Below are positions 35,413 through 59,368 of a stretch of DNA of 64,000 nucleotides, piece after piece (position 1 is the stretch's first letter; the number at the start of each line of letters is the position of its first letter). The translations under genes and the position numbers were made by a program. The notes beneath the pieces are model-generated. The model saw only the letters and a list, made by a program, of their open reading frames with translations. It was not told the origin of the DNA and searched no databases. The stretch covers positions 124,001-188,000 of the forward strand of contig JAHGAU010000017.1 of the NCBI GenBank assembly GCA_019925105.1. Reading direction: 5' to 3'. The stretch comes from Niebla homalea. Taxonomy: Eukaryota; Ascomycota; Lecanoromycetes; Lecanorales; Ramalinaceae.

Positions 35413-36409
35413 TGACCATGGAGTAACAGACAACCAAATGTTTTTTGGACGAACGTGAATTGGTGCAATATTATCATATGCAAGGTTCGGTTTCTTCGAA
35501 GCGGTCCCAACGCTGGAGGAGCTGAATTTGATCCAAAAGGGAACAGTGCATCGACGAGATAGCTTCGATTCTGTTCGAAGCCTTCCTCGAGGGTGGGACA
35601 TGCACGATTGTATGTGGACATCATGGTTGTGATGGGTCTGGACAAGACGGCTTGGTTTGATCTTAAAGGTGGTCATGCAGTTCGAGGAATCGAATTGCCA
35701 ACGCGAAATCGCCACGACCCAACTGCGATTGCCATGTATTGACGGGGAGATCCCATACTGCGATGTGTCGTCGTCATTGGGAGAGAATTGTAGGCCTGCA
35801 AAATCCTTTTATTATGAGGCATTGTCCACTTTGCAAACTCACTGACCCACTCGATTTCCCCATGCTTCAAATTGATGAGACTTTCGGCGATTCTTTAGCT
35901 TTGCCATGTTGTTCTAGGGAGAACTACTGATTCTGCATGAGTATCACAAGGCTTGGAGAAATGAACCGAGATGGCTCGTCTTTGTCGCAGAATGATAGGT
36001 AGGTTGACCGCGCCATATCTCATGCTGCCCTAAAGGCTGTTTAAAGCGTGACTGCGTAAATATTGGGCTCAGACAGGCCCAGACAGGCCCAAGCTTGGCT
36101 GAAGCAGCGGGCTAACCTCGTAAAAGCAGCGCGTACATCAGACAGAGGGGATCAAGCCGCTCCACAAGATTCTCCACTAATATAGCTCATCGTTGCCCAA
36201 TGATTGCTCATTTGCTGCAGCATTGCGCGAAAACCCTCTGCTTGTGTCTTTACGTCGCAGCTTTGAAGTACGAGGGTTAATGACGTCAAAGGTATCTCAA
36301 GGTACAGGGATGGAACATTATCGCAGTGTAATCAATCCAAGCATACATAGAGATCTCGGCTAGAGTCAAAATATCTACGACTTCTTGAGAGATTCTTATC
36401 AAGTCAGCC
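35413..36409. other. Intergenic
   Basis: No supported gene; only short ORFs. A small direct repeat of CCCAGACAGG occurs near 36073-36095. Confidence 0.55.
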
Positions 36410-37876: not shown

Positions 37877-38255
37877 TTTCATATCTCACGGAAAGGCAAC
37901 CGGAGCAATCCTAGGAAACATCTCTGAACTTCCAAGCGATGTCATGTTTGCTTGAGTACATGTTTGATTGAAAAGTGGCGTTATGATTGATAGGAGCCAG
38001 TCATGTGATCAGCGTTTCAGTGAATGAAATTGTGGTCAGAGAGCAAGTTGATTGGGGCAATTCGTCGCCCCGCCATTTTCGACTCCACTACAACACTCAT
38101 GTCCTGAATTGTTGACAGGACCACGTAACACTGATCTAGTACAGATTGGCAGAAGATACGTTGCATTTAATAATCCATTTCGTGCCACTTCAACTATTTC
38201 GTCGTATCAAGATCAGGCTCTCTGCTCAAGCGTGACAGTTGGTCACCCGGAGAAG

Positions 38256-40094
38256 ATGGCCGATGCTCCTGCTGCTTCTCAAGATGCGGGATTGATTGAC
38301 CTCATTAGCAATGATGATGTGACTGATTACGACAGCGACACAACCCTAAAGGATGATTCTCAGCAGCCTCAGACTGCTACCGACCACGACCACGCTGCTG
38401 CTCAAGTGGGAGCAGTCTGTAAGACTATACTATGCATTAAGCACGTCGGATCGACCTTGAAAGCCGGAAAATGCGCGGAACTTATAGATGGGAGCTTCCT
38501 GAGAATTACAGAACTGCTCCAAGAAGTAAACAACGAGAAAGTCTTCCTTAAAGGCCATCGCTTTCGTCGCAACGTTGAATTGAGTGGTCTGCTAGAATTG
38601 AAACGCAACGAAGTACACCAACTTATTCGTCAGACTTCCGGGGGTGAGGACGCCTCGGAGTTTTCAACCAAAAATATCTGGTTCATACATTTATCTGATG
38701 TTGTACGAGTACGAGAACTCATCAAAACGAACTTACCATGGCCTGCAAAGAGCTACAAGGAGATCGAGCCTGATTATCATTACTTCCCCAATGAATGGCA
38801 AAAGGATCATTTCAGACTCGTATGTCGTTGGAAATACCTTAAAGTTAATGCAAAACAAGGCATAGTCTTGAAGCTTAGGCAGGAGGAGTGCGATATTGCC
38901 CACTCAGCATCAGACAGTGTACTCCAATTCTCCTTCCGTGGTAATACAATTAAGCATGGATCCTGTAATGCTTGGCTTCCTGGAGAACGGCAGTTCGATA
39001 CCAATGAAAGATTACGCACTCATAACAGGGATCCATTGGGTTTCTACAGTACATCAAATGACAATCTCCTCATCGATCTCACCGTCCAGGACTCTGAAAA
39101 TCACCGGTATACGCTTGGTGACGGATTCTGTTGTTCTGGTGGCACTTCACGTGGCGCCAAAGGGGCCGGTTTGCGCGTGTCATGGGGATTTGATCATGAT
39201 CCGGCCGCAATTCACTCGTACCAGAAAAACTTTGCCCACGCAAGCTGCTGGGTTGTCGATGCACACCATTTCGTCGCCTTGTTCGAGAATGACAGGGAGG
39301 AGGCGGCCAAGGTAGACATCCTCCATCTCTCACCACCTTGCCAAACCTTTTCGCCTGCACATACAAGACAGGGTCAGAACGACGACCAGAACTCAGCTTC
39401 CTTTTTCGCTCTCGAAGAGGTAATCAAGACCGTGAAACCAAGGATAGTCACGATAGAAGAGACGTTCGGGTTGACAGGCACCCTCAAGAACATACCCTAC
39501 TTTCGCGCCATGATCCAGACCCTCACAAGATTAGCCTTTAGTGTGCGTTGGAATGTATTCAACTTGAGGGAATTCGGCCTTCCGCAGCCTCGCAAGAGGC
39601 TCATTATCATTGCGTCTTGGTTGGTACCCTAGCAGACTGTCATATGCACGCTGAGTTTTGCTAACAATTGATGGCATTACAGCCCTGGAGAAACCTTGCC
39701 TCCCTTCCCTCAACTGACACATTGCGACCCTATTCGGCAGCATCTACAAAACAATCGCAAGCCATATACGACCGTGAATCAGATCATCAGTCAAATCCCT
39801 GCTGGCATTTCCTTGCATAATCCAGACCAGATGCCTCTTATCCACGAATTTCCATACAACGGAAACGAGTCTCTCCGCACTACCATCACGTGCGGAACCG
39901 GACAGTCCTGGCACCCATCTGGCACGCGGGCGTTCACTCTACGCGAGATCGCTTGCCTCCAAGGCTTCCCCTTAGAGCACGAGTTCGGCACCGTCGGCAT
40001 ACGAAAGCAGATTGGCAATGCAGTGCCCCCACTCGTCGCCAAACTAATCTTCGAAACAATCATCCAGCATCTGAAGAAGGTCGACAGCATGTGA
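38256..40094 (+). CDS. rid: RID/Masc1-class cytosine-5 methyltransferase
   Basis: Exons about 38256-39619 and 39683-40094, with a 63-nt phase-2 intron, give about 591 residues. The frame is open upstream to 38052 and could add 68. The protein has the cytosine C5-methyltransferase motifs in order: I (GFCCSGGTSRGAKGAG), a Trp-Gly-Phe-Asp motif II, IV (SPPCQTFSPAHT, with the catalytic Cys), VI as IEETFG instead of the usual ENV, VIII (REFGLPQPRKR), then IX/X ending IGNAVPP after the intron. Replacement of ENV by E-x-T is known from the fungal RID/Masc1/DmtA class, needed for repeat-induced point mutation in Neurospora and premeiotic methylation in Ascobolus. The 290-residue N-terminal part is a BAH-like or class-specific region. 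All catalytic motifs look intact. Confidence 0.88.
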
Positions 40095-40313
40095 AAGGTA
40101 AAGAGCAAAGTGGTGGCACCAAGTCATTGTCAGAACCATCAGGCAGTGTGGCACAACCAAATGCAGAGGCGCCTCAAGACAAGCGCATAGTGCGTGCCGT
40201 AGTCTTCAAAAATCCCCAATTCAATTTCATACCAAGAACTCCAGATCTACCATGTCCCCCTCCCCTCTTTTCCGTTCTCCCTCCCCCTCCCACCCATTCC
40301 ACTCCTCAATCAC

Positions 40314-42287: not shown

Positions 42288-42810
42288 ATGTCGGACAACG
42301 GAGCAGGGTACTCTCTTCAGCGCCCCGGTGAGCGGCGTTGCGGCTTTTGGAAGGTCCAAAGGCAATGTACACATGAAATTCTCGCGCTTAAGACCGCGTG
42401 TGCAAGGCATCCGGATTGCATATGCCATGTGCTCCTTGATCCTACCAGTATCTCGGGGTGTCGTCCAGCGTAGGTCCTGGATGGTCAAACGTTACATTCG
42501 GACGCCTTGCTTAACGGTGTGGTACAGGGACAGAAAGTAGGGCAAATGCGAGAGTTGCAAAGAAAAGCGCGGTCTCTTTGGCAACTTTTTGGGCAAGAAG
42601 AAGGACGAGTACGAAAAGAAGCAAGCCTTAAAAGAGGCGGGTCTAAAGGCAGCTGCAGAGGCCTTCAAATTGGCTGGTGAACGCTACAATGCTGCCAATC
42701 GTGGTCAGTCGATCCAACTCTACCGACATTTTGTTCATCAACATCTTGTCCTCTATGCTTACTATCATCACTCTCAGAGATGCATTCTAAGGTCATACCA
42801 AATTTTGTGA
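42288..42810 (+). pseudogene. Cys/His family member A, interrupted by TAG
   Basis: Exon 1 (42288-42469) encodes 60 residues with the family module CGFWKVQRQCTH...CARHxxC. A 58-nt intron with a CTTAAC branch ends at 42527. Exon 2 opens in the family's phase 2, but the fourth codon after the junction is TAG (42538-42540). Directly after it, the same frame continues with GKCESCKEKRG and a Lys/Ala-rich helical region to 42810, just the CxxC plus charged helix seen in exon 2 of the other members. The gene thus looks disabled by one nonsense codon, unless readthrough or another acceptor is used; I found no acceptor that avoids the stop and keeps frame. See the member F entry for the family description. 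Confidence 0.6.
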
Positions 42811-43225
42811 ACTTGGAACCACGCATGCCTCCTTGCGAGTTCGAAGCAGTCCAATGCTTATGCACGCACTACGATATTGAGCTGAAGGAGAGATGTCCGA
42901 GTCACTCCGGTACAACCGAGATGTGTAAAAAGCCGGACGTTGGTGCACCAGATTTCCAACCAAGATTTCTACCCAAGGATTATGGAAGGTATGAGAACCT
43001 TGAGGATAATTACAGATGTATTACTTATCCGTGCAAATTAGAAAGAACTGTTCCCGCAAATGTAGACATTGTTTGGAAATAAGGGCCCACTATCAAAAAA
43101 AGGAACAAGCCATGGCTGGGATACAACCTGATGCGTGTTCGTCAGTCGGGCTCAGACGCCCATCATTAGACGAGCACGACGAGATTCAGGGTCAGTACAC
43201 GAGATCGTGGCCATCTCGGAGCTGA
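42780..43225 (+). CDS. Cys/His family member B
   Basis: Exons 42780-42988 and 43042-43225 with a 53-nt phase-2 intron give 130 residues. Exon 1 carries CEFEAVQCLCTH, then C-x2-H and a further Cys six residues on. Exon 2 carries CSRKCRHC followed by a charged segment. The second Met (42825) is only three residues before the first Cys of the module and may be the start, giving 115 residues. No signal peptide or membrane helix. The spacing C-x6-C-x-C-x-H differs by a residue or two from the others, as expected for a diverging zinc-binding module. Its 5' end lies within the disabled frame of member A, so the two are nearly head to tail. Confidence 0.6.
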
Positions 43226-44986
43226 TGAAATTGAGCTGACCTTCAATTTAGCCTGTCTGTGATGTTTGCTGGATTTGGATAGCGAGATGGGTGCACAATG
43301 GAAAGAGTGGAGTAAACAAAGCCTGAACAAAGTATTTTGGAAATAGTCACGAAGTACAGGAGTGCCTAACAGGAAAGTTGGAAGACAAAGTCTATTGGTC
43401 ACAGGCGAGATGCATCTGGGGTTTTTTGAATTAAGGGGAGGGAGGAAGGGAAAAGGAGTGTCATGCGTTAGGAGACACACCAAAGTAAAAAACTTCTTCC
43501 AAGAGTAAAGGTCGGTGCAGTAGACTTTTCGACTCTCGTGCCTGCTCTACCTTGACCTCGTGATGCTTGCTTATCTAGGTCAGACACCGCCAAGCATGAC
43601 TCTCTTCTTGCCTTGAAGGCTTTTGACATTCACAAAGCAGTGCTGTTTGGCCTACCACCTTCGAATGCCGAGTTTTTCACATGCCTTGAATGACAACTGG
43701 ATTGGGACTGCGGCATTGATGAAAAGGAATCATCAGAGAATGAGGTTGCTTCTTCTCTCTAACCCTGGTTCTTTGGGTGTCAGCCGGTGTGTTGCGGGCA
43801 TGGAGTGCGGGTTATGGAGCAGTCATGCAGGCAATGCCAAGACATCCTCATGATGCGTGTAGATACCATCACCTCGCTGTACATCCCAGAACGCCTAGTT
43901 GTTTACCCACAAGCACCTTTCGTCTTTATAGATAGATCATCATATAGATCATACAGAATGCACACACATTGCATACCTACTTGCTTGCTGTGAATCTTAC
44001 ATTCGGGGACGCTTCATAGTCGACTCAATCTCCGCTACCTGCAATCACAGCCATCTAACCCAGTCTATGGGGTCGAGCTGACTTTGCAACCTCTTATTAG
44101 CCTTGCCCAGGCTTTACGGGCCTTCGAATCAAAGTCCCTCCCATCTGCGCAGGGGTATGCAGCTGAAATGGCTTCCAGACAGGTCATACATACTGCTGAC
44201 ATTGACTCCATTTCGAAAAGTCTGCCAGATTGGGGGGGTTCCCGACTATTTTACCACTCCTGAAGTATTACATTGCACGCACTACCTTTCAAGAGGAGCT
44301 TCGTAGAGTTGGCAAATTCTTTGAAGCCTTCTACACATGGGCGAAGCCTTGGATCGGACTCGACTACCGGCTCCCTTATCTTTTTCTGAAGCTTGCAGAT
44401 AGTGGATATTTCGGTGCAGGTTACATGCACTGCAAAAAACAATTGAGTCCTCGGAGTCTCCCGTAATGCTGGAGTCTTCAGCAATAGTGCAACTGTACTG
44501 GCATAGGTACCACACAGTGCGACCTCAACGGATTGAAGGGACTGGCCAGCTTTGCTAGCGCCTCGGGTTCGCTGAAAGCCTTGGATTCCTGCGAAGGCCC
44601 CACACTAAAGAGCACACACGGGTGGTCCATCGTGAAGACCCTGCATGTCATGGGTCTTTTGGCAGATGATGGCGTTACTATGATTGATGAGACTGGCTGA
44701 AGTAATAAGGACTGGTCAGCAACTGTCCCGTTGAGCAAGTTGTGTAACAACTACTGAGGCCATACGAGAGGGCCATTGAAGCACGCCTGTCAATACTTAA
44801 TGACAGGAACGACCCCTCTTCCTACATTTTTCCAACTCTCCTCCACATTCAGCTCACTCTGACTGCCGAAGCTAACATTTCATCAAAGCATTTACCAACC
44901 CAAGCGTCTCACGCTATCCCCTCAAATTCCTGTAAAGACTCCACACCAAGCTATCGGCCTCAGACACGTCGACGTGTTTGCCAAGG
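43226..44986. other. Intergenic with a possible family relic
   Basis: No supported gene. Around 43770-43850 the plus strand encodes CCGHGVRVMEQSCRQC, which resembles the core of the neighbouring Cys/His module (C-x-H-x8-C-x2-[H/C]). It is preceded by a stop and has no first exon. The rest of the stretch has only short ORFs. Confidence 0.4.
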
Positions 44987-45554
44987 ATGCCTTCCTTGAT
45001 GAAGAAACTCAAGGGCAGGGACAAAGGGATCGACAGGAAGCTGATCTCTGGTCCAGTCAATCAGACCCAAGGCGGAGGCAAAAGCATCGACAGGAAGCAG
45101 ATCTCGGGTCCAATCAACCAGACCCGAGGCGGAGACAAAAGCATCGACAGGAAGCAGATTTCCGGTCCAGTCAGTCAGACCCGAGGCGGAGACAAAAGCA
45201 TCGATAGGAAGCAGATCTCCGGTCCTGTCAATCAGATCCAAGGCGGAGGCAAAAGCATCGACAGGAAGCAGATCTCGGATCCAATCAACCAGGCCCAGAA
45301 CTTCGTGTTGCACAGTTGCGGGTATGAAACAAAAGTATTCCGTTGCGGATACGAATCGAAACCAGTGTTTAAGGCGTGCGAGACTCACCATTTCAAAGGT
45401 GGAACATGTGCCCGATGGGAACAGCGAAAAGTGTATGTGCCGCCCTCGCGACACACACACAAAGCGTGGGCACTGCTGACGAAGTTGATATGTTAGCTCG
45501 GACCCTGAGAACTGGTGTGCTCATAGCTGCCCAAATAAGCCCAGTGGAGCCTGA
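44987..45554 (+). CDS. Cys/His family member C with 19-residue tandem repeats
   Basis: Exons 44987-45432 and 45497-45554 with a 64-nt phase-2 intron (GTATGT donor, GCTGAC branch) give 167 residues. Residues about 16-105 are five tandem copies of a 19-residue unit containing IDRKQISGP, encoded by a 57-bp repeat. The family module follows: C-x7-C, then C-x2-H-H and a final Cys just before the junction, where the sequence TCARW parallels TCDKW of member F. The His normally found two residues after the second Cys is replaced by Tyr. Exon 2 is short, encodes CAHSC and ends after 19 codons, so it lacks the charged tail of the other members. The basic repeat region is specific to this member. Confidence 0.6.
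45050..45295 (+). repeat. 57-bp coding tandem repeat
   Basis: About four to five imperfect units of 57 bp in exon 1 of member C. Each unit encodes 19 residues and carries AAAGCATCGACAGGAAGCAG or a close variant. Unit length is a multiple of three, so copy-number change would keep frame. Confidence 0.9.
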
Positions 45555-46291
45555 CATAGCTATGCCTTGGGCAACCTGTCAACCATTCTAGGTCATGCGG
45601 AGGCAGCAAGCACGGTAGGCACCAATCGACAAGTTCCAGACTCAAACCTCACTGCTCTTGCGAACTGGAGTCCAGGTATGGAGGTGAGGAACACGCGGTT
45701 AGGTCGGGGACACCAGATGGACATGCTGGCTTGCCATTGTTCCCAGAAGACATTAAAAATCAGGAATAGCGGTCGCTGAGGTTTTGAGATATGTACAATT
45801 TGCATTGGGTGATGGGTTCGAGTATATTCCATCACCTGAGTGTCGTACAACCTCAGTGATACGAACCAACGTATCTCGGCTTTTATGAAGAGAGCTCAAT
45901 GAACTTATTTCCCGAGGATTCTGCTACTTCTTATACATCAGAACAATCTTAAAAACAGACGTGTGCACGAGGTTGCGTGTTTCTCCAAAATCAAAGATTC
46001 ATCTGTGCCGCAACACCCAATGCAGACCATACCATCCACCCAAATTCCAATAACCAAATGCAGACCGTACGTACATGCCATTGATGACCACTTCCCGCTA
46101 CAGTTGATGTGTGGCGCGGTCAGAGGGATTGATGAGCTGACCGGTCTTTGCGGTGTTTCCTCTGCTTTCCTGGCTCTACCTCTTCTTCCCCTATCTCTGA
46201 CACTAGCGGTAGCAGTCACAGTCGAATCTGTCCAGCATCGACTTGTGATCAGTACGCTTACTGCTTCCCGCTCCGTTGCCCAAGGTTCGTC
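45555..46291. other. Intergenic between convergent members C and D
   Basis: No supported gene. ORFs on both strands are short and unmatched to the family module. Confidence 0.5.
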
Positions 46292-46791
46292 TCAGCCAGG
46301 GCCAACTCCGCTCTCTTTCAAGGCCTCATACTCGGCCACGTTGTCCCTGTCCTCGTCGTCCAGGCGCTTCGTTTCCTGATCTTTCTGGTTCTGGGCGAGC
46401 TGCGCCTCGTATTCCTCGGCCGTCACCCGGTTCTTGTGATCCCTGCACCACCTGCCATATTGGTTGCTGCACGCACACCGGGGCACGTTATAAGTAGATG
46501 GTTTTTTTTCCCCATACGTTCAAAGATGAAGGGGAGAAGGAGGGGATTGACGAAGACATACATGGGGCCAATGACTTTCAGTGGCTGTTTGCACCACGTC
46601 TCACCGGGCTTGTCGACCTTCTCCAGGCCCTTGTGATTCTTGCAGCGCAAGATCCAATGATCTTCGTGCACACAGCCGATGAAATTGGGGGACTTGGGGT
46701 ACCGGTGCACCTCATTCAGGCATTTGTCGCGGGTTTCGGCATTGGTGTCCTTGAAGTGGATGTATTGGTTTTCAAGTCTTGCGTACGTCAT
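46292..46791 (-). CDS. Cys/His family member D (inverted)
   Basis: Exons 46791-46562 and 46466-46292, with a 95-nt phase-2 intron (GTATGT...GTGCAG), give 134 residues. Exon 1 has a Cys at about residue 24, then CVHEDHWILRCKNH, then a Cys after a longer 12-residue loop. Exon 2 has WCRDH in place of the CxxC pair, followed by a strongly charged Glu/Gln/Lys/Asp helix of about 45 residues. It is the only member on the minus strand. The intron phase and position match the others, which supports homology despite the looser spacing. No signal peptide or membrane helix. Confidence 0.6.
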
Positions 46792-48346
46792 GATTGGGCA
46801 ATAGCTGGGCTATCAACGGGAGGCAGTCGAACAATCTTGATGGAGTAGGCTTGTGATGGCAGAGATGCCTCTTGGAAAGGACTCTCTTGGTGGTTTCGAG
46901 TGAGCTGTATGATGGGGAAAAGAAATAAAGAACCAAAAGAATAGTAGCCGATGTGTGCCTTTAAGTAACCAGCAGAGTCCCTAGCTACTTCTTGCTTATG
47001 GTCAGCGTCAGGATGACAACATACCCATCGGCATCTCTGCCAACCATCCATTTTTCTTCCAGCCAATCTCCAAGGCCAACGGTGATCCCAACGTCTCTTG
47101 CCAAGACCCACAGTATGCAGGGGTCTTCTCGAAACCCTGCATGCTGCAAGCCCTGTAGTCAGGCTTACGCAAATACTCAACAACTCCCCAGAACATTAAT
47201 GGCTAAGGGAATGTGTCGACGTCCCTGAGCGTGCATTAGAAACGTCCTTGTTGAGCCATTTGGGCGTCCATACCTCTGGTAGACTTTAGAATCGAGTCAC
47301 TATTTTTGGGCTCCCACAATATGCATGACCTGCATGGACGACTGATTGCGAAGATCGGGAGTCACTAGGGCGAGGCTGCGATAAGGCTGCAGATCCGCTA
47401 CAGGTTTTCAAGGCGGAACCACCTATCTGGGTTGCAGGATGATTTGACTTGCGGAGCCTTCCACTGAATAGGGAATTGGGAGGGTCTGGTTCCAATATGC
47501 TATTGTATCACGTTGGAGCAGATTCGCAATCCTGTTAATTCTATCCACAGCCATACGGCTTTATCATGGAGAGTAGCAGACTTGCTTACAGTAGGTCTTA
47601 TACCGTTCTAATGTTTTGTGAAATCTTGATCATATGAATTGTATCGTATCCCTTCAAATGACAAAGCTGTTCCATCCTGTGAATGACAAATAGATGGCAA
47701 GTAGAGGACCTACCTTTCTTCCAGAGGCGACACAATCCACCATTGGAGAAAAGCTTTTATGAAATTCAATGGGTCCACCGGATGCGCATGATCCAATCGC
47801 ATTCACTTTCCTCAGTTCTCTCCCACGGCTTTGTCACACTGAGCCTTACAACAAGCACACTTCGTCCCAGATTTCATATCACGCGGCTCCCCATCAGAAA
47901 CGAGCGTTTCCAGAGTCCAGCACATTGGCTGAAATATTCTCGTGCACTTATCTTCCTGCAGGAGCCCGAGATCACAGGAGTGTCCTCGTACGAGATACCA
48001 CGTGACAGGCTGCCTGGATAAGGACCCTGCATCATGTGCGTCTCAGAGAGGTCAACAGCGTCATTGTTCTCCGGCACTTTGGTTAGAACCCAGAGGCCTT
48101 GGGGGGTCAAAGATGCCGATGGACGGCTGTTACGCCATTGCATTGCCCACAAGAGCGCGCTGAGTGGTGTGTACGGTCGCAACATAAAAAATGGGCGTCC
48201 TGCTACTGCTCTTGAGTCTCTATCCTTTAGCTCTTCGATGAGCTCAGGCATCAAGACCAAATTAGCCTTTTCTTTCTCCACGGGGTTATATCGTTCTCGA
48301 TTTCCTTGACCATTTTCCGCGCCAGAATTTTCCCTCGGCATTCTCA
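46792..48346. other. Intergenic, one unsupported minus frame
   Basis: The minus frame 47874-48347 (157 codons) has fairly protein-like composition but no recognised domain and no clear splice partners. Nothing else is supported. Confidence 0.35.
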
Positions 48347-48981
48347 ATGTCTTCTAGCCATGCAGCTCCTTCGGGGGCCAGCCATCAGGGGCCGCAAAAA
48401 TGCAGAGTTCACGAAACATTCTGGCAGTGTACACATCCTAGCCGCAGCTGGACACAGTGTCATAGTCATCAAGGCAGCAAACAGCTGTGCAACGAACTTG
48501 ATCACATGGTATCGTAGGCGCCCCCACTCCAAGTCATCGTAGTTCATTGCACTCACCTGCTTTGAACAGTTATGATCAAACCACAAAATGTCCACTTTGC
48601 TATTCCTACATATACGGTATCGATACTGAGGACGGAGGCTTCAATTTCAATCAACACTGCATTGAGATGACAATGACCTGGGCATGTGGCCACCCCACCA
48701 AAGAGCTCTGGATGTGCATGAAGCACCAGGATGCCAAGAACCCGATAGTGTTCCAAAATCACCCACCAGCACAATGCGAACATCCTCATTACAGGAAGTC
48801 CAACAACCCTGCAAGGGTATGTTGGCTCTGTCTGCATCAAAACATCGCACGCGAGTCCAGCAACCGGGTAGCCAGAATGATCGAGAGAATTAATTCTGGC
48901 GGAGGGGATCCAACAACCGTGCAAGGAAATGTTGGCTCTGTCTGCATCAAAAGTTCGCCGTCAAGTCCAGCAACTGGGTAG
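48347..48981 (+). CDS. Cys/His family member E, double module
   Basis: Exons 48347-48513 and 48570-48981 with a 56-nt phase-2 intron (GTAGGC...AACAG) give 192 residues. Exon 1 holds a textbook module (CRVHETFWQCTH...CHSHQGSKQLC). Exon 2 starts with CPLC, then a second complete module follows in the same exon (CIEMTMTWACGH...CMKH...C) with its own CWLC pair. The protein is thus two fused units, the second without an intron. The 3' end is altered: a 110-bp tandem duplication (from 48800 and from 48910) shifts the frame, so the present C-terminus reads the duplicate out of phase and stops at 48981. In the other phase, the duplicate continues as a plausible original C-terminus to about 49098. Confidence 0.65.
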
Positions 48982-49019
48982 CCAAACTGATCGAGAGAAC
49001 TAATTCTGGTGGGGGTATT
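48800..49019 (+). repeat. 110-bp tandem duplication in member E
   Basis: Copy 1 about 48800-48909 and copy 2 about 48910-49019, alike at most positions, including a long block encoding CWLCLHQ and IER(I/T)NSGGG. The unit is not a multiple of three, so copy 2 is read in another frame. Confidence 0.9.
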
Positions 49020-50075
49020 CCGTCAGAATGGCTTGACTATGATGGAAACGCCAAAGACCCTAGCGTCGCCGAGCAGATAGAGAGCCGCACGACTTGAGCG
49101 CAAGAGATCTCTCGCGTACACAGTAGCCGGAGGAGATGGAGCAGATGAGCGCAGACGCTGGGCAGCCACTCCACTAACCAAGTCACATGATGACAGAGAC
49201 ACCACTCGATCAAGAGTAGCGTGCAGGGTCTGCCATTGGTAGTGGACAAAGCTCTGTCTTCTGGTCAGTCATGGAACCTTGTGGAAAGGAGCGAGTAGAC
49301 TCTTCATCCGAGAGAGAGATAGTAAAACATCTCAGAATATGATCTCATTGAGGAATCATGAAACATGCAAACAGATTGCAAGTTCTTCCGAAGTCACCCT
49401 ATTGGCGGGCCAAGCTTTCGTCCCCACGACACACTTCACAGACGAGTAGAAACTTCTTCCCTGCAGTGACGTGCTTTCGTGAAACACCTATACCCACGAC
49501 GCACTTCACAGACGAACAGGGACTTATTCCCCACAATGAGGTGACGCCGGATCCGCATTATCGCCATGTAGAAGCCTTGACTGAAACGCAACGCGTCGCG
49601 CTAGGCTTTATGATCGGGACGGCTTTTCCTGTCAATTCTGCATGTTAATGGTCCCATGATAAAATCAGCGCTTCCACAGCCTAGCGGATTGGCCAGAGGT
49701 GATGCTGCCCACTTATTTTTGTACCCAAGCCTCAGCTTCGTGGGCTGTCCGGACGATCGATGATGTGTACCAGAAGGCGAGACCGAGACCGTGCATGATG
49801 TGTATCATGAAAGAGACGGCTGGGTCACCATGTTTTAGCGCATTGGCGGATATGCTATTGGTTGGTCGTCAAATATGTCAGGGATAGTGTGGTACAAAAT
49901 GATCGTGAGGGTCTGCATTAGATGGTCGCTATGCCAGTAATCGCTCTTTTCTTCCCCATCAGACTCAATCGTATTTATCCTGACTGTGATATCTTTCATT
50001 ACCTTCTGGACCTCCACATCTGTCGTACCATTGTTCTCCAATCACTTGGCCTGGCAGTTGAAAACATCGCTGACC
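48982..50075. other. Intergenic with diverged direct repeats
   Basis: No supported gene. It begins with the probable former 3' end of member E (open to about 49098 in the duplicate's phase). Two similar blocks at about 49417-49475 and 49476-49548 share CACGAC(A/G)CACTTCACAGACGA and look like an old tandem duplication. Confidence 0.45.
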
Positions 50076-50618
50076 ATGTCATCGGAAGGTAAGGGCAAGG
50101 AACCAGCCAGCGGTCTATCTGGCAAATCAGACTCTCCTCCCTTGCCATGCATTGTGGAGCTGGAGCGATGGGCCTGCGTCCATGTGCCCGAGGCAACCTG
50201 GAAGTGTGCTGCCCATCACAGCACGGAGGAAACGTGCGATAAATGGCTCCATACAGACGTGTACGAGGATCCTCCACAGACACATGAGGGCAGATTATAC
50301 TAACGCGCTTCTTCAAGTACCACTGATGTCATTCCATGTCCCAAGTGTCGATCTTTCGACGACGAACCAGATCCCATGGAGGAGGGCAAACCGATCATCC
50401 AAGAGATTAAACCAAGCATCCCGAGAAAGGAGCTGAGCTACGCCGAACGTGCAAAGACTGGACAGGTGTCCAAGGCCTCTCAGGCGAGGGTCGAGCGGGA
50501 TGCGGCCAACCACCAATTCCGGCGACTGTGCGTGGAAAGACGCGCTAGGGAGCTTCAGGATGCACAGCTGGAGTTTTACGACACGTTTGGGCATTCTTAT
50601 CCAAATCGCCGGCGATAG
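50076..50618 (+). CDS. Cys/His family member F
   Basis: Exons 50076-50260 and 50318-50618 with a 57-nt phase-2 intron (GTACGA donor, ACTAAC branch, TCAAG acceptor) give 161 residues. This is the clearest family member. Exon 1 has a 27-residue Ser/Gly/Lys-rich lead, then CIVELERWACVH, C-x3-HH, and a last Cys in TCDKW, followed by the junction. Exon 2 has IPCPKC and then about 85 residues of charged, probably helical sequence ending in a basic tail. The Cys/His spacing suggests one or two bound zinc ions. No signal peptide or helix, so it should be intracellular. I know no named family with this arrangement, and I cannot assign a function. An upstream in-frame Met at 49986 is less likely because the family starts close to the module. 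Confidence 0.65.
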
Positions 50619-51272
50619 AATCACAAGACGGCAGAGAGGATCGATTGATTAAAATTTTGCGTGGTCTGTATTGGGTACTGAAGTCTGGATGTAATGTGAG
50701 CTTGACAATTACGCGATCTCGTATTCACGAGCGAGCATGATTTTCTCTAATCTATGGGAGACAACATACGTCGTTCAGAATAAAGGTCTGAGCTTTTACG
50801 ATATATTGCAGAGATTTTTGACAGATCTACTGCAAGATACGGAAATCCGAGGGTGCGTGACGTACTATGTAGCCGCCATAATACGACCGTAGATAGTCAC
50901 TTGATCATGACGTGTGTGTTAGCGGTTCGAAAGACCACATGTTTCCGAGCTGCTTTTAAATTCGAAGGCTGCAACATCAAATACGCCCTTCGAGACTGAG
51001 TAGGCATTGAGGACTACGTATGAAGGGAAGCTCCGTGACGGTAACACAGTCCCTTGACACCCATTAAGGTTTTGCTAGTGCGTTTGCTGTTATTGCCCAG
51101 TACTCAGCATCCCAAACTCCTTACCTGGCAATCATTCCTATCTCATACGAAGCTAGAGACACTCGCACCATCCACGCACGCTGTGAGCGTCGTCCTATTA
51201 CCCACCATCGCGATCTTTCTTTCCGAGTGCGCTCTGTCATACCACACAGCCCTCGAAAGCCTATTTCTCAAA
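50619..51272. other. Intergenic
   Basis: No ORF of note. It is moderately AT-rich and contains the promoter region of member G. Confidence 0.55.
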
Positions 51273-51587
51273 ATGCCACCAAAGCAGCGGTGCATCCTCA
51301 AGAGGGTGCATTATACCTGCGTCTGTGTAGTATACGAAGTCGTCCGTCAATGCGGCAAACACCAGCAGTATGGAGGACGTTGCCTGATCCTCAAAGATGG
51401 ATACGGAAATCCGTGTCCAAATGAGTCAGCTTGCCTACTTTCGTGTTTTCTTGCCACCTTTGAGTCGCTGATATCAATCAGGGTGGAATATCAGGCGAGA
51501 ATCTGTCCTAAATGCGAGGAGAAAATTGAGAAGCGTCGGGAGAAGATCGATGACGCAGAGGGGCAGGCGATCGTGAATGACGACTGA
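51273..51587 (+). CDS. Cys/His family member G
   Basis: Exons 51273-51412 and 51482-51587 with a 69-nt phase-2 intron give 81 residues, the smallest member. The module starts at residue 7: CILKRVHYTCVC, then C-x2-H and C five residues on. Exon 2 has ICPKC followed by a Glu/Lys/Arg-rich helix and an acidic end. The His after the second Cys is Cys here. It is almost exactly the module plus CPKC plus short charged tail, so it may represent the minimal form of the family. Without the intron the frame also stays open, which could hide the splice from simple ORF-based gene calling. Confidence 0.6.
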   Translation: MPPKQRCILKRVHYTCVCVVYEVVRQCGKHQQYGGRCLILKDGYGNPCPNESACLLSCFLATFESLISIRVEYQARICPKCEEKIEKRREKIDDAEGQAIVNDD

Positions 51588-54672: not shown

Positions 54673-56677
54673 ATGATGACAGAACCCGTTGAAATGCAGG
54701 TGGACGAGCCGGATCCGACTTCCGAGCAAGATTTGTCTGGAACGCAGCTTCCGGATGTAAGTTTTATCCTGCTCCTTCCCTTTCCGTCTTCCATCCTCAA
54801 CTTTCTTTACCTCGACCACTCATACCAATGCAACTCCATCGTTAAAAGACAACGATCCTTATATAAACAACACGCTCAAGAACGTGTCTGAAGCTAATAT
54901 ATGTACTGAACCTCGGCAGGCTGTAACCAGACGACTTTCCGACGCCTTGACCAAGATAGACAGTCTGGAAAAAGCCAACCGCCATCTAGAATTTCAAAAG
55001 GCAAATGTTCTGGCCACCAGCCAGTCATTACAATACACAGTTGCCAACCTAGCAGTCAACAACGACTTTGCCCGGTTTCGCGCGGAGAGGAATCATCAAC
55101 GTTACGCGGACTCTGTAAAGTCCAGGTATCTGTCCTCGGAGACAGCTCAACTCACCATGGCACAAAACCAAATCCAGCAGCTCTTGGCCCTCCTCGGTGA
55201 GGAGCGTGACCTGACACTAGACCTACAACAACGTCTCGATCATGAGACCATTGTCAGCCAAGCAATCGAGATTGGCGCTGAAGCGCTCCGAGAGAGTAGC
55301 CAAAATGCTCTGGAAGCGGTCGACGAACTCAGATTGCAGAAACAGCAGATGCTCAATCAGATCTTCAATCTGGAGGCTGTATGTGGAGAGAGAAGCGAAA
55401 GGATAGCATCGGTTGAGAAGGAGTTGCAGAAGGTCAAGAGTGTCTCTCCTGAAAGCCAAGGCTCGGCGGATATGGAGCTTGTCGGAGTGTCCCACACCAA
55501 TGAGGATGGGTCAAGCAAAGTGTCCTCTCCAGGTCAAACCAGACCTAAAGGACATGCTGTCTTCCTCATTGATGGCAATCATCACCAATTCACGAGAGAG
55601 GCCATATATGACCTGGGTGGCGACCTCACAGCTAAGATATTGATCGAAGGTGTACAGTCACTAATGGAGGACAAGCAGATCCACTTACGAGTGGCCATCT
55701 ACGCAGACAAAGACCAGCTTGCGGAAAGCATGGCAAGTAACCAGACTCTACATCACCCACGTGACTTCCTGGAATTCGAACACTCCTTCAACTCCGTCAG
55801 TCCTTGGACGGAGTTCATTGATACCAAAAGCACCGACCACATCTTTGAAATGCTCAAGTTGTATCTAGAAGATCCAACTTGCGAGTTCATTCTGATTGGG
55901 GGAAAGATGACTGAGTCTTTCAAGCGTCTCGCCCACCAGTACAAGGACATCCGACGTCGCCTCTACGTTTTCTCCAAGGCCAATCCTAAAAGCCTCATAC
56001 AACCAAAGTCCGAGGAATACAAGCTAATTAATCCAATGGGTCATATGTTCCAAGAAGACCGTCCTGCCCCATTGGCTCGTTCGCAAATTCAGCACGGGCC
56101 AGTTACTTTTGATCAACACGGTCGTCGTGTTGATCCTCGCCTCTATACCACACAATCTCTCATCAACCTTGTCACCAGCTGGAAACTTTGCAACAACCAT
56201 TACTTGATCGGCATATGTCGGTACGATAGATGCCATCACTGCCATAACCGGCAGTTGACGCAGGAGCATCTGGAGACGCTTGCCTTTTTGGGCAGGAGCC
56301 TCGTCTGCCGCAATGGTCCTGCATGTGAGGATCCAACATGCTATGCCGGACACATATGCCCTCGACAGACTTGCGATGGACAGCAGTGCAAATTCCCCAG
56401 AGATCAACATTTGGAGGGGACGATCAAGGCTCCTGAGCCAGTCAACCCATTCAGCACTTCCCCAAGGGGAGACACCCAACTTGCATCCACAGTATCCATG
56501 TCTAGTCCCGCGCGTGGAAGGACTATTCTTTCCCCCCGGGCGAGAACCTCCAATGCCAGAATGAATTCTCCAGGTACTGTTGCAACACATTGGTCACGCA
56601 TGCGTGACGAGCAAGAGCCCCATGAGGACCGTCGTGAACTATTCCCGGGAAGGCAGAGTTCCCGGCGGCAATACTGA
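54673..56677 (+). CDS. NYN-like / CCCH zinc-finger protein
   Basis: Exons 54673-54756 and 54920-56677 give 613 residues. Residues about 30-200 form a long coiled coil. Residues about 235-375 start HAVFLIDGNHHQF and contain alternating hydrophobic strands and acidic positions, as in NYN/PIN-like nuclease folds; ascomycete proteins of this layout carry a domain catalogued, I believe, as DUF7923. A CCCH finger (C-x8-C-x4-C-x3-H) lies near residues 450-470, and a second Cys/His cluster near 495-530 may form another. The C-terminus is Ser/Arg/Pro-rich and disordered. The combination suggests RNA binding, perhaps RNA cleavage, but whether the acidic residues form an active site cannot be decided here. 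A second, nearby Met (54676) is an equally good start. Confidence 0.8.
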
Positions 56678-57829: not shown

Positions 57830-59368
57830 GGGGTTATCGCAAACGTGCATCCCGTACGTATATACCTGCCACAAAGACACACAGAGAGAGAAGGCGGGAG
57901 AAAAGGAGAGAAAGGGGGGGGGAGAGGTGGATGCGTCTGATCGATCGTTCAAGGAAGCCGGCCCCCCATGGAGATGGGATAATAGGATGAATGGACGAGA
58001 TGGGATGGGTAATAGGATGTATGAATGGATGGGATGGGATGCATAAATGGATGGGATGAGATGGGGGGTCATCACAAACGCGCACGCCCGTGCGTACGTA
58101 CGTACAAGAGAGAGGGAGAGAGGGAGAGAGGGAGAGAGGGAGAGGGAGAGAGTAGGGGAGAGAGCGAGGGAGAGAGCGAGGGAGAGAGGAGGAGATGGAT
58201 ACGTCTAATCAATCGTATAAGGAAGGCGCTTAAAGGGCATAGAGATAGAGATGGGATAATAGGATAAATAAATGGGATGGGATGGGATAGGATGGGATGG
58301 GGTAGGATGGGATAGGACGGGATGGGATGGGATGGGGAGGGGGGTTTATCCCAACGCGCGCCCCGTACGTGCCAGAGAGAGAGAGGGGAGGGAAGAGAGG
58401 GAGGGGGAGAGATGGATGCGTCTGATCGATCGTACAAGGAAGCCGGCCCCCCATGGAGATGGTGTAATAGGATGGATGGGATGGCATGGGATGGCATGGG
58501 ATGGCATGGGGAGGGGGGTTTATCCCAACGCGCGCCACGTACGTGCCACGGAGAGAGACGGAGGGGGAGAGGGAGAGGGGGAGGGAGAGATGGATGGATG
58601 CGTCTGATCGATCGTAAAGGAAGCCGGCCCCCCATGGAGATGGAATAATAGGATGGATGGGATGGGATGGGATGGGGGGTCTGTCCCAAACGCGCAACCC
58701 GTAAGGTACGTACGATGCCCCTGAGAGAGAGAGGGAGGGGTAAGAGATAGAAGGGGGAGGGGGAGGGATGGATCGTACAAGGAAGCCGTGAGGGGGAGGG
58801 CATAGAGATGGGATAGTAGGATGGATGCGATGGATGGGATGGGATGGATAAATGGGATGGGGTGGGGGGGTTTATGCAGACGCGCGTCCCGTAACGTACG
58901 TGGGTTGCCCCCGAGAGAGAAGGGGGGGGAGAGAGATAGATGCGTCCGATCGATCGTACAAGGAAGCCGGCCCCCCATGGAGATGGGATAATATGATGAA
59001 TGGACGAGATGGGAGGGGATGGGATGGGATGGGGGTTTATGCCAACGCGCGCCCCGTATGTACGTTGCCCCCGAGAGAAAAGGGGGTGGGAGAGAGGGGG
59101 AGGGATGGATGCGTTTCGATCGTACAAGGAATTCGCCAGGGGGATGGAGATGGGATAATTGGATGGATGGGATGGGGAGGGGATGGGGAGGGGGGTTTAT
59201 GCCAACGCGCGCCCTGTGCGTACCTGCCCTAAAGAGTGAGAGAGAGGGAGAGGGGGGGATGCGTCTGATCGATCGTACAAGGAAACCGCCCGGGGGGGCC
59301 ATGGAGGTGGGATAGTGGGATGGATGGGATTGGAGGGGGAAGGTAGGTTGGTAGGTAGGTAGGTAGGG
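57830..59368 (+). repeat. Degenerate purine-rich tandem repeat array
   Basis: Eight imperfect units of about 160-280 bp. Each unit has, in order, a core like AACGCGCGCCCCGTACGTGCC (seen near 57838, 58072, 58346, 58521, 58683, 58869, 59039 and 59200), a GA-rich tract (GAGAGGGAG), the block TGCGTCTGATCGATCGTACA followed by AGGAAGCCGGCC, and a GGATGGGAT run. Unit length varies mainly through the GA and GGGAT runs. The plus strand is strongly purine-rich and has many closely spaced G runs. Long ORFs on either strand here are by-products of the repeat and have no start or domain support. A (GGTA)n run closes the array. Confidence 0.92.

Follow-up and report, generated by a model that had tools for sequence, protein, structure and literature searches.

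A 9.3-kb part of the genome of the ascomycete Niebla homalea carries seven short Cys/His-rich loci, A to G, most of which probably encode members of a single protein family. The loci lie within a stretch of 64,000 nucleotides, here called the window (C17:124001-188000, C17 being contig JAHGAU010000017.1 of assembly GCA_019925105.1; the genome comprises 50.6 Mb in 52 contigs), and all positions below are window positions. With a probability of roughly 0.6, we read the loci as a fast-diverging tandem array of a probably intracellular zinc-binding family, that arose from one ancestral two-exon gene; A, B, C, E, F and G would be its members, with seven domains among them, and D a possible further one. 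The evidence comes from a Cys/His motif concentrated in the array, from a shared splice geometry and from profile searches.

Cys/His motif

A strict form of the Cys/His motif is matched five times in the window, by B, C, the first domain of E (E1), F and G, and all five matches fall within 42.8-51.4 kb; in 60 order-2 Markov simulations of the window, the mean was 0.017 matches and the maximum 1. No strict match was found in 20 other 10-kb stretches (200 kb) of the same genome, a sample beyond which further clusters may exist elsewhere in the 50.6 Mb. Ten of these control stretches flank the window on C17 and ten lie on contigs C1-C8, five of the 20 being AT-rich. When the motif was relaxed to C-x(7,9)-C-x-[HCYW]-x(6,9)-C-x2-H, seven matches were obtained in 264 kb (the window plus the 200 kb), and all seven lay in the array: A, B, C, E1, the second domain of E (E2), F and G. 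The first two cysteines are eight residues apart in every one of them, with an extra Cys in between in B. A family pattern, C-x8-C-x-[HCY]-x7,8-C-x2-H, is present in six of the seven loci and again in the second domain of E, and fails in D; in B, C, E1, F and G it is followed by x6-C. These counts bear out the coordinates and the Cys/His pattern given in a preliminary description of this DNA; its loci were already known when the motif was defined, the domains were cut and the splice test described below was set up. In alignments of the array domains, the ligands are constant while other positions vary, and identity, measured against the top sequence of each alignment, is 17-29%. This divergence fits the earlier characterization of the family as fast-evolving.

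Splice geometry

The preliminary description had assigned every locus one phase-2 intron and had exon 2 usually opening with CxxC ahead of a charged helix. The splice test sought GT-AG introns that are 45-120 bp long and contain a branch-like site, with a donor no more than 25 codons past the final motif Cys and a CxxC at most 12 residues on. A phase-2 join to CxxC is available in four of the seven loci, with introns of 53 bp in B, 56 bp in E, and 57 bp in both F and G, and the CxxC follows 7-8 residues past the junction in B, E1, F and G. Among 3776 control Cys positions, taken from the window outside 42-52 kb and from the 15 of the 20 sampled loci with GC above 45%, such a phase-2 intron occurs at 25 and one of any phase at 58; counted in any phase, five of the seven loci pass, A doing so in phase 0. 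The AT-rich loci were dropped from this control and kept in the motif and profile backgrounds. The binomial P of ~7e-8 for four of seven in phase 2 is indicative, as it treats the loci as independent and the test as preset, which it was not.

The remaining loci depart from this geometry to different degrees. In C, the best-scoring donor (GTATGT) and a 64-bp intron reproduce the C-x14-C spacing of E and F, followed by C-x3-C in place of CxxC; C fails the CxxC splice test, and other acceptors are possible. After splicing, the series of Cys gaps is 8, 10, 9, 14, 3 in C and 8, 9, 9, 14, 2 in E1 and F, with the distance from the sixth ligand to CxxC (14 residues in C, E1 and F) being longer in B and G. 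In D, a candidate phase-2 intron leads to C-x2-H instead of CxxC and the first loop has 15 residues; D fails the test. Alternatives also exist among the four loci that pass, namely a phase-0 intron of 107 bp in B and a second fitting phase-2 donor in G. The earlier claim of a universal phase-2 intron is not confirmed: such an intron is supported in B, E, F and G (to CxxC), likely in C and a candidate in D (to C-x2-H), but A has no phase-2 GT-AG path to its CxxC frame; the claimed opening of exon 2 is found in B, E, F and G, but not in C or D. The second half of E, previously noted only as looser, is a complete second domain that needs no intron.

Profile searches and common descent

Profile hidden Markov models (HMMs) were built from eight hand-cut domains, one being omitted per run, and used to search 6277 six-frame open reading frames (ORFs). 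The omitted domain outranked all background ORFs for F (E 5e-9), E1 (8.5e-6), B (2.3e-5) and G (1e-3). A background match in L019 (on contig C2) recurred over the eight runs (E 0.0017-0.16) and was rejected, the spacing of the motif being absent from it. A six-frame search of the whole genome with protein E returned E itself, its own duplicated tail and, beyond these, gene F only (E 0.25). The case for common descent is strong in B, E, F and G and fair in C and A; that for D, which does not separate from background, is unproven. To this extent the common origin proposed earlier for all seven loci is retained. The gene models are collected in Table 1.

Table 1. Predicted gene structures and associated features of the array (window positions).
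Feature	Position	Strand	Basis and remarks
Gene A exon 1, C-x8-C-x-H-x8-C-x2-H domain	42288..42469	+	Relaxed motif; HMM E 0.03
Gene A probable exon 2 frame, GKCESCKEK then charged stretch	42541..42810	+	Overlaps start of B; codon score 0.16
Gene B exon 1	42780..42988	+	Strict motif; HMM 2.3e-5; alternative start ~42825
Gene B intron, phase 2, 53 bp	42989..43041	+	Splice test
Gene B exon 2, CRHC then charged segment	43042..43225	+	Splice test
Gene C exon 1, ~five 19-residue repeats then domain	44987..45432	+	Strict motif; tandem repeat
Gene C likely intron, phase 2, 64 bp, GTATGT donor	45433..45496	+	C6-C7 gap 14
Gene C short exon 2, C-x3-C	45497..45554	+	Splice modelling
Gene D exon 1, doubtful member, 15-residue first loop	46562..46791	-	Not separable from HMM background
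Gene D candidate intron, phase 2, 95 bp	46467..46561	-	Splice modelling
Gene D exon 2, C-x2-H then charged stretch	46292..46466	-	Splice modelling
Gene E exon 1, first domain	48347..48513	+	Strict motif; HMM 8.5e-6
Gene E intron, phase 2, 56 bp	48514..48569	+	Splice test
Gene E exon 2, CPLC of domain 1 and complete second domain (CGH...CWLC)	48570..48981	+	Relaxed motif at 48658; low-confidence models
110-bp tandem duplication of CWLC-helix segment of E	48799..49009	+	Second copy out of frame
Gene F exon 1, domain	50076..50260	+	Strict motif; HMM 5e-9
Gene F intron, phase 2, 57 bp	50261..50317	+	Splice test
Gene F exon 2, CPKC and long charged tail	50318..50618	+	Splice test
Gene G exon 1, domain	51273..51424	+	Strict motif; HMM 1e-3
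Gene G intron, phase 2, 57 bp	51425..51481	+	Splice test; open in frame, retention (unspliced reading of G) possible
Gene G exon 2, CPKC and charged stretch	51482..51587	+	Splice test

Further sequence features were seen within the array. The 19-residue repeats at the N-terminus of C are encoded by a 57-bp tandem repeat of ~5 copies (45020-45297), and two 51-nt direct repeats, 80% alike, lie between E and F (49423-49543). Between B and C, the interval 43250-44990 contains protein-like stretches interrupted by stops and frame changes and looks like a decayed or many-intron gene. A Cys-rich open frame on the minus strand between D and E (47818-48042), ending in ...KCACCKAQC, does not satisfy the array motif and is a possible further relative.

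Points against and alternative explanations

Several results weigh against the reading of the array as a single family of coding genes. By codon usage, nine of the 14 predicted exon stretches lie within the bulk of 54 intergenic open frames, five lie above it (A2, the C repeats, D1, D2 and G2), and another forward frame scores slightly higher in A1, E1 and G1; codon scores thus back the reading frames weakly. In the leave-one-out searches, C (E 0.02), A (0.03) and E2 (0.05) were matched or beaten by one or two unrelated ORFs each, and D (E 0.42) ranked under five. Own-genome searches with F, B, G, D, C and A and with two single domains found no other array member, returning the query gene, once its duplicated tail and twice one weak match elsewhere; these two matches, L004 (F query, E 0.82) and L038 (E2 query, E 8.75), were rejected, the motif being absent from both. 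Two AlphaFold2 models of the E2 domain are of low confidence, with mean predicted local distance difference test (pLDDT) scores of 54 and 48, and disagree after a hairpin that both contain, with strands from C1 and just before C4; a helix from CWLC onward in the first model is not repeated in the second. Gene A is probably broken or differently spliced, as an in-frame TAG precedes its KCESC frame, the best phase-2 join terminates after DRK, and the frame is reached only via a weak phase-0 donor, GTGCTC (42429-42540). The good codon score of this second frame (0.16) suggests that it was coding once, or is otherwise spliced. Finally, any link between the array and repeat-induced point mutation (RIP) is circumstantial. 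The array itself is without a RIP signature, its indices being equal to those of gene-rich DNA, which implies that RIP did not write its divergence directly, or not recently; on the same indices, an array composed of RIP-mutated copies is not supported.

Some of these points would be expected if the array were mostly dying, a set of relics in which one or two genes still work. This is unlikely: while A cannot be joined in the family phase, the second CWLC copy of E is out of frame, protein-like frames between B and C are broken and codon scores are weak in most exons, B, E, F and G have kept open frames, ligands and a matching splice, and the ligands stay fixed where other positions vary. Chance resemblance among Cys-rich open frames would account for unconserved residues between the ligands, for weak codon scores, and for D being indistinguishable from background with C, A and E2 at its edge. 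It is barely credible given a motif enrichment and a common splice geometry far beyond the controls, and it was rejected for the array as a whole and is strongly disfavoured for B, E, F and G.

A more substantial alternative is that the loci are diverged members of an unnamed family widespread in filamentous ascomycetes, comprising small CGH...CPxC proteins of a kind that appears to occur there without annotation. E2 (ACGH...CWLC) and the CPKC or CPLC of E, F and G resemble this pattern. Two profile searches of 5.8 billion proteins yielded no homologue (E <= 0.1 among 3984 candidates; E <= 10 among 268), in a search that requires common 5-residue words and has poor reach for a family so divergent, so that absence is not shown and relatives without such words would escape it. 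Nevertheless, the same collection returned 443 proteins for the product of a neighbouring gene (a RID-like DNA methyltransferase, see below), lichen proteins among them, and no Pfam-A family scored over its cut-off. We consider a widespread family possible, if somewhat doubtful.

Protein properties and proposed mechanism

Over the first 35 residues, no 9-residue hydropathy mean exceeds 1.2 in A-F; in G, a value of 2.4 is attained from residue 16, which lies within the domain. The earlier statement that no member has a signal peptide is thus upheld for A-F, by a crude hydropathy scan only, and is qualified for G. Genes for secreted fungal proteins are typically small, cysteine-rich, fast-diverging and arranged in tandem, and the array could in principle encode secreted, disulfide-bonded products, for example acting on a partner organism. 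The hydrophobic stretch of G would agree with this; the lack of any strongly hydrophobic stretch over the same 35 N-terminal residues in A-F would not, and the conserved His, the CxxC and the C-x2-H favour metal ligation, making secretion quite improbable.

The reading of the array as a zinc-binding family can be put as a mechanism. Array members would be small proteins that lack an obvious signal peptide and have a common C-x8-C-x-[H/C/Y]-x7,8-C-x2-H module, with a phase-2 intron and a CxxC (C-x3-C in C). Zinc binding fits the ligand pattern, and in the most likely arrangement the ligands would coordinate one zinc ion or two around a beta hairpin, while the CxxC would sit close to where a charged C-terminal helix begins. 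If the metal site alone sets the fold, nearly all surface residues would be free to change, and the variable surfaces and charged tails most likely bind partners; roles in conflict or allorecognition, as suggested earlier, are conceivable. The array would have been enlarged by local duplication that may be ongoing, and the 57-bp repeats in C and the 110-bp repeat in E make such duplication visible. By removing long similar copies, RIP may let short or already diverged genes survive and so favour small, unlike paralogues.

Genomic setting

A gene for a RID-like DNA methyltransferase (PF00145) lies at 38052-40100, ~2 kb upstream of the array. In the window translation, motif VI of its product reads IEETFGL and contains an EET triad, EQT or EET in motif VI being the feature of RID/Masc1 membership; the EET variant is reported for some RID-like enzymes (PMC6709928). 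The six best of the 443 matches to this protein are 62-67% identical. The only named entry among these six, and the best named one among the matches listed, is the lichen Ramalina farinacea at 64%, and every further named entry among the 120 listed bears the name of a lichen genus. A second DNA methyltransferase (PF00145) gene is present on contig C1.

Five of the 20 sampled 10-kb stretches are AT-rich (19-33% GC) with a positive composite RIP index, and the stretch directly before the window (L012, C17:114001-124000) is AT-rich (23% GC) with a strong RIP index. A study of the lichen Cladonia rangiformis describes a similar bimodal picture together with RID and DIM-2 homologues, and two ~730-bp transposon families that may escape RIP by size, or by very recent activity (PMC12542154). 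Size-based escape of this kind would fit array genes of 0.3-0.6 kb.

A bolder version holds that the zinc module has a new ligand order limited to one group of probably lichen-forming fungi, that the array diverges permanently beside the RID gene since copies too much alike fall to RIP, and that it is used as a variable intracellular recognition set, for self/non-self or against mobile elements. We regard this as a long shot, and only here would the nearness of the RID-like gene have a causal meaning. If the main reading of the array as a zinc-binding family holds, small zinc-type proteins would gain a new ligand signature, and the HMM and the intron site would offer a handle for annotating genes that ordinary similarity search misses because little besides the metal ligands is kept. 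The array would also be a testable case of a multigene tandem array persisting in a genome with strong RIP signatures.

Other features of the window were recorded. Cys/His-rich frames with CGHHGC and CRRH...CPLC occur upstream of RRN9 (35500-35927, +); considered as further array copies, they do not satisfy the array motif, and the second frame has no Pfam match. A gene with DUF7923 and a tandem CCCH zinc finger is located beyond the NAPRTase gene (54761-56677), and a strongly G-rich, GC-skewed low-complexity tract with ATGGG/GAGAGG-type repeats spans 58000-59300.

Comparison with known families

The view that the family is unrecognised is consistent with the library searches: array proteins matched no Pfam-A family at its cut-off, five pieces (A and C not among them) matched nothing in NCBIfam, a library built for bacteria and archaea, and a literature search at the level of search entries gave no description of such a Cys/His family. 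The nearest scores all lie below threshold. In its repeat region, C matches PF23527, an Apicomplexa microprotein, below the gathering score (E 0.0015, 18.9 bits versus a cut-off of 27), and E reaches 8.9 bits versus 27.2 for Pfam CHCH; exon 2 of E also scores weakly for an NDNF domain (E 0.11). KDZ-associated CxC clusters (PF18717, PF18721) resemble the array through the weak scores of D for CxC6 (E 0.08, 13.6 bits versus 27.5) and of E exon 2 for CxC4 (E 0.25, 11.6 bits versus 26.9), but these are at most half the curated cut-offs and B, F and G have no match, so this identity was rejected. No transposase domain was found among 20 window ORFs scanned with Pfam (of 45 listed at >=150 aa).

Eleven classical zinc-type spacings were tested on the seven models, and none of the seven fits CCCH, RING, C2H2, Zn2Cys6, GATA, AN1, B-box2, LIM, MYND, BED or twin CX9C (CHCH). 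The CCCH pattern is C-x7-9-C-x4-6-C-x3-H, and that of RING is C-x2-C-x9-39-C-x1-3-H-x2-3-[CH]-x2-C-x4-48-C-x2-C. The array modules are like CCCH zinc fingers (C-x8-C-x5-C-x3-H) in being small, putatively zinc-binding modules with a first gap of eight residues, but unlike them in the full spacing, and no Pfam CCCH match was obtained. With RING, B-box, AN1 and MYND-type fingers they have in common six to eight Cys/His ligands and a CxxC before a charged stretch, whereas the spacings differ in every model and no Pfam match exceeds its cut-off. Tandem arrays of fast-evolving, lineage-specific genes occur in fungi, and the loci described here resemble them as short, highly divergent local paralogues; unlike such arrays, they have a common metal-ligand signature and intron site and no evident signal peptide.

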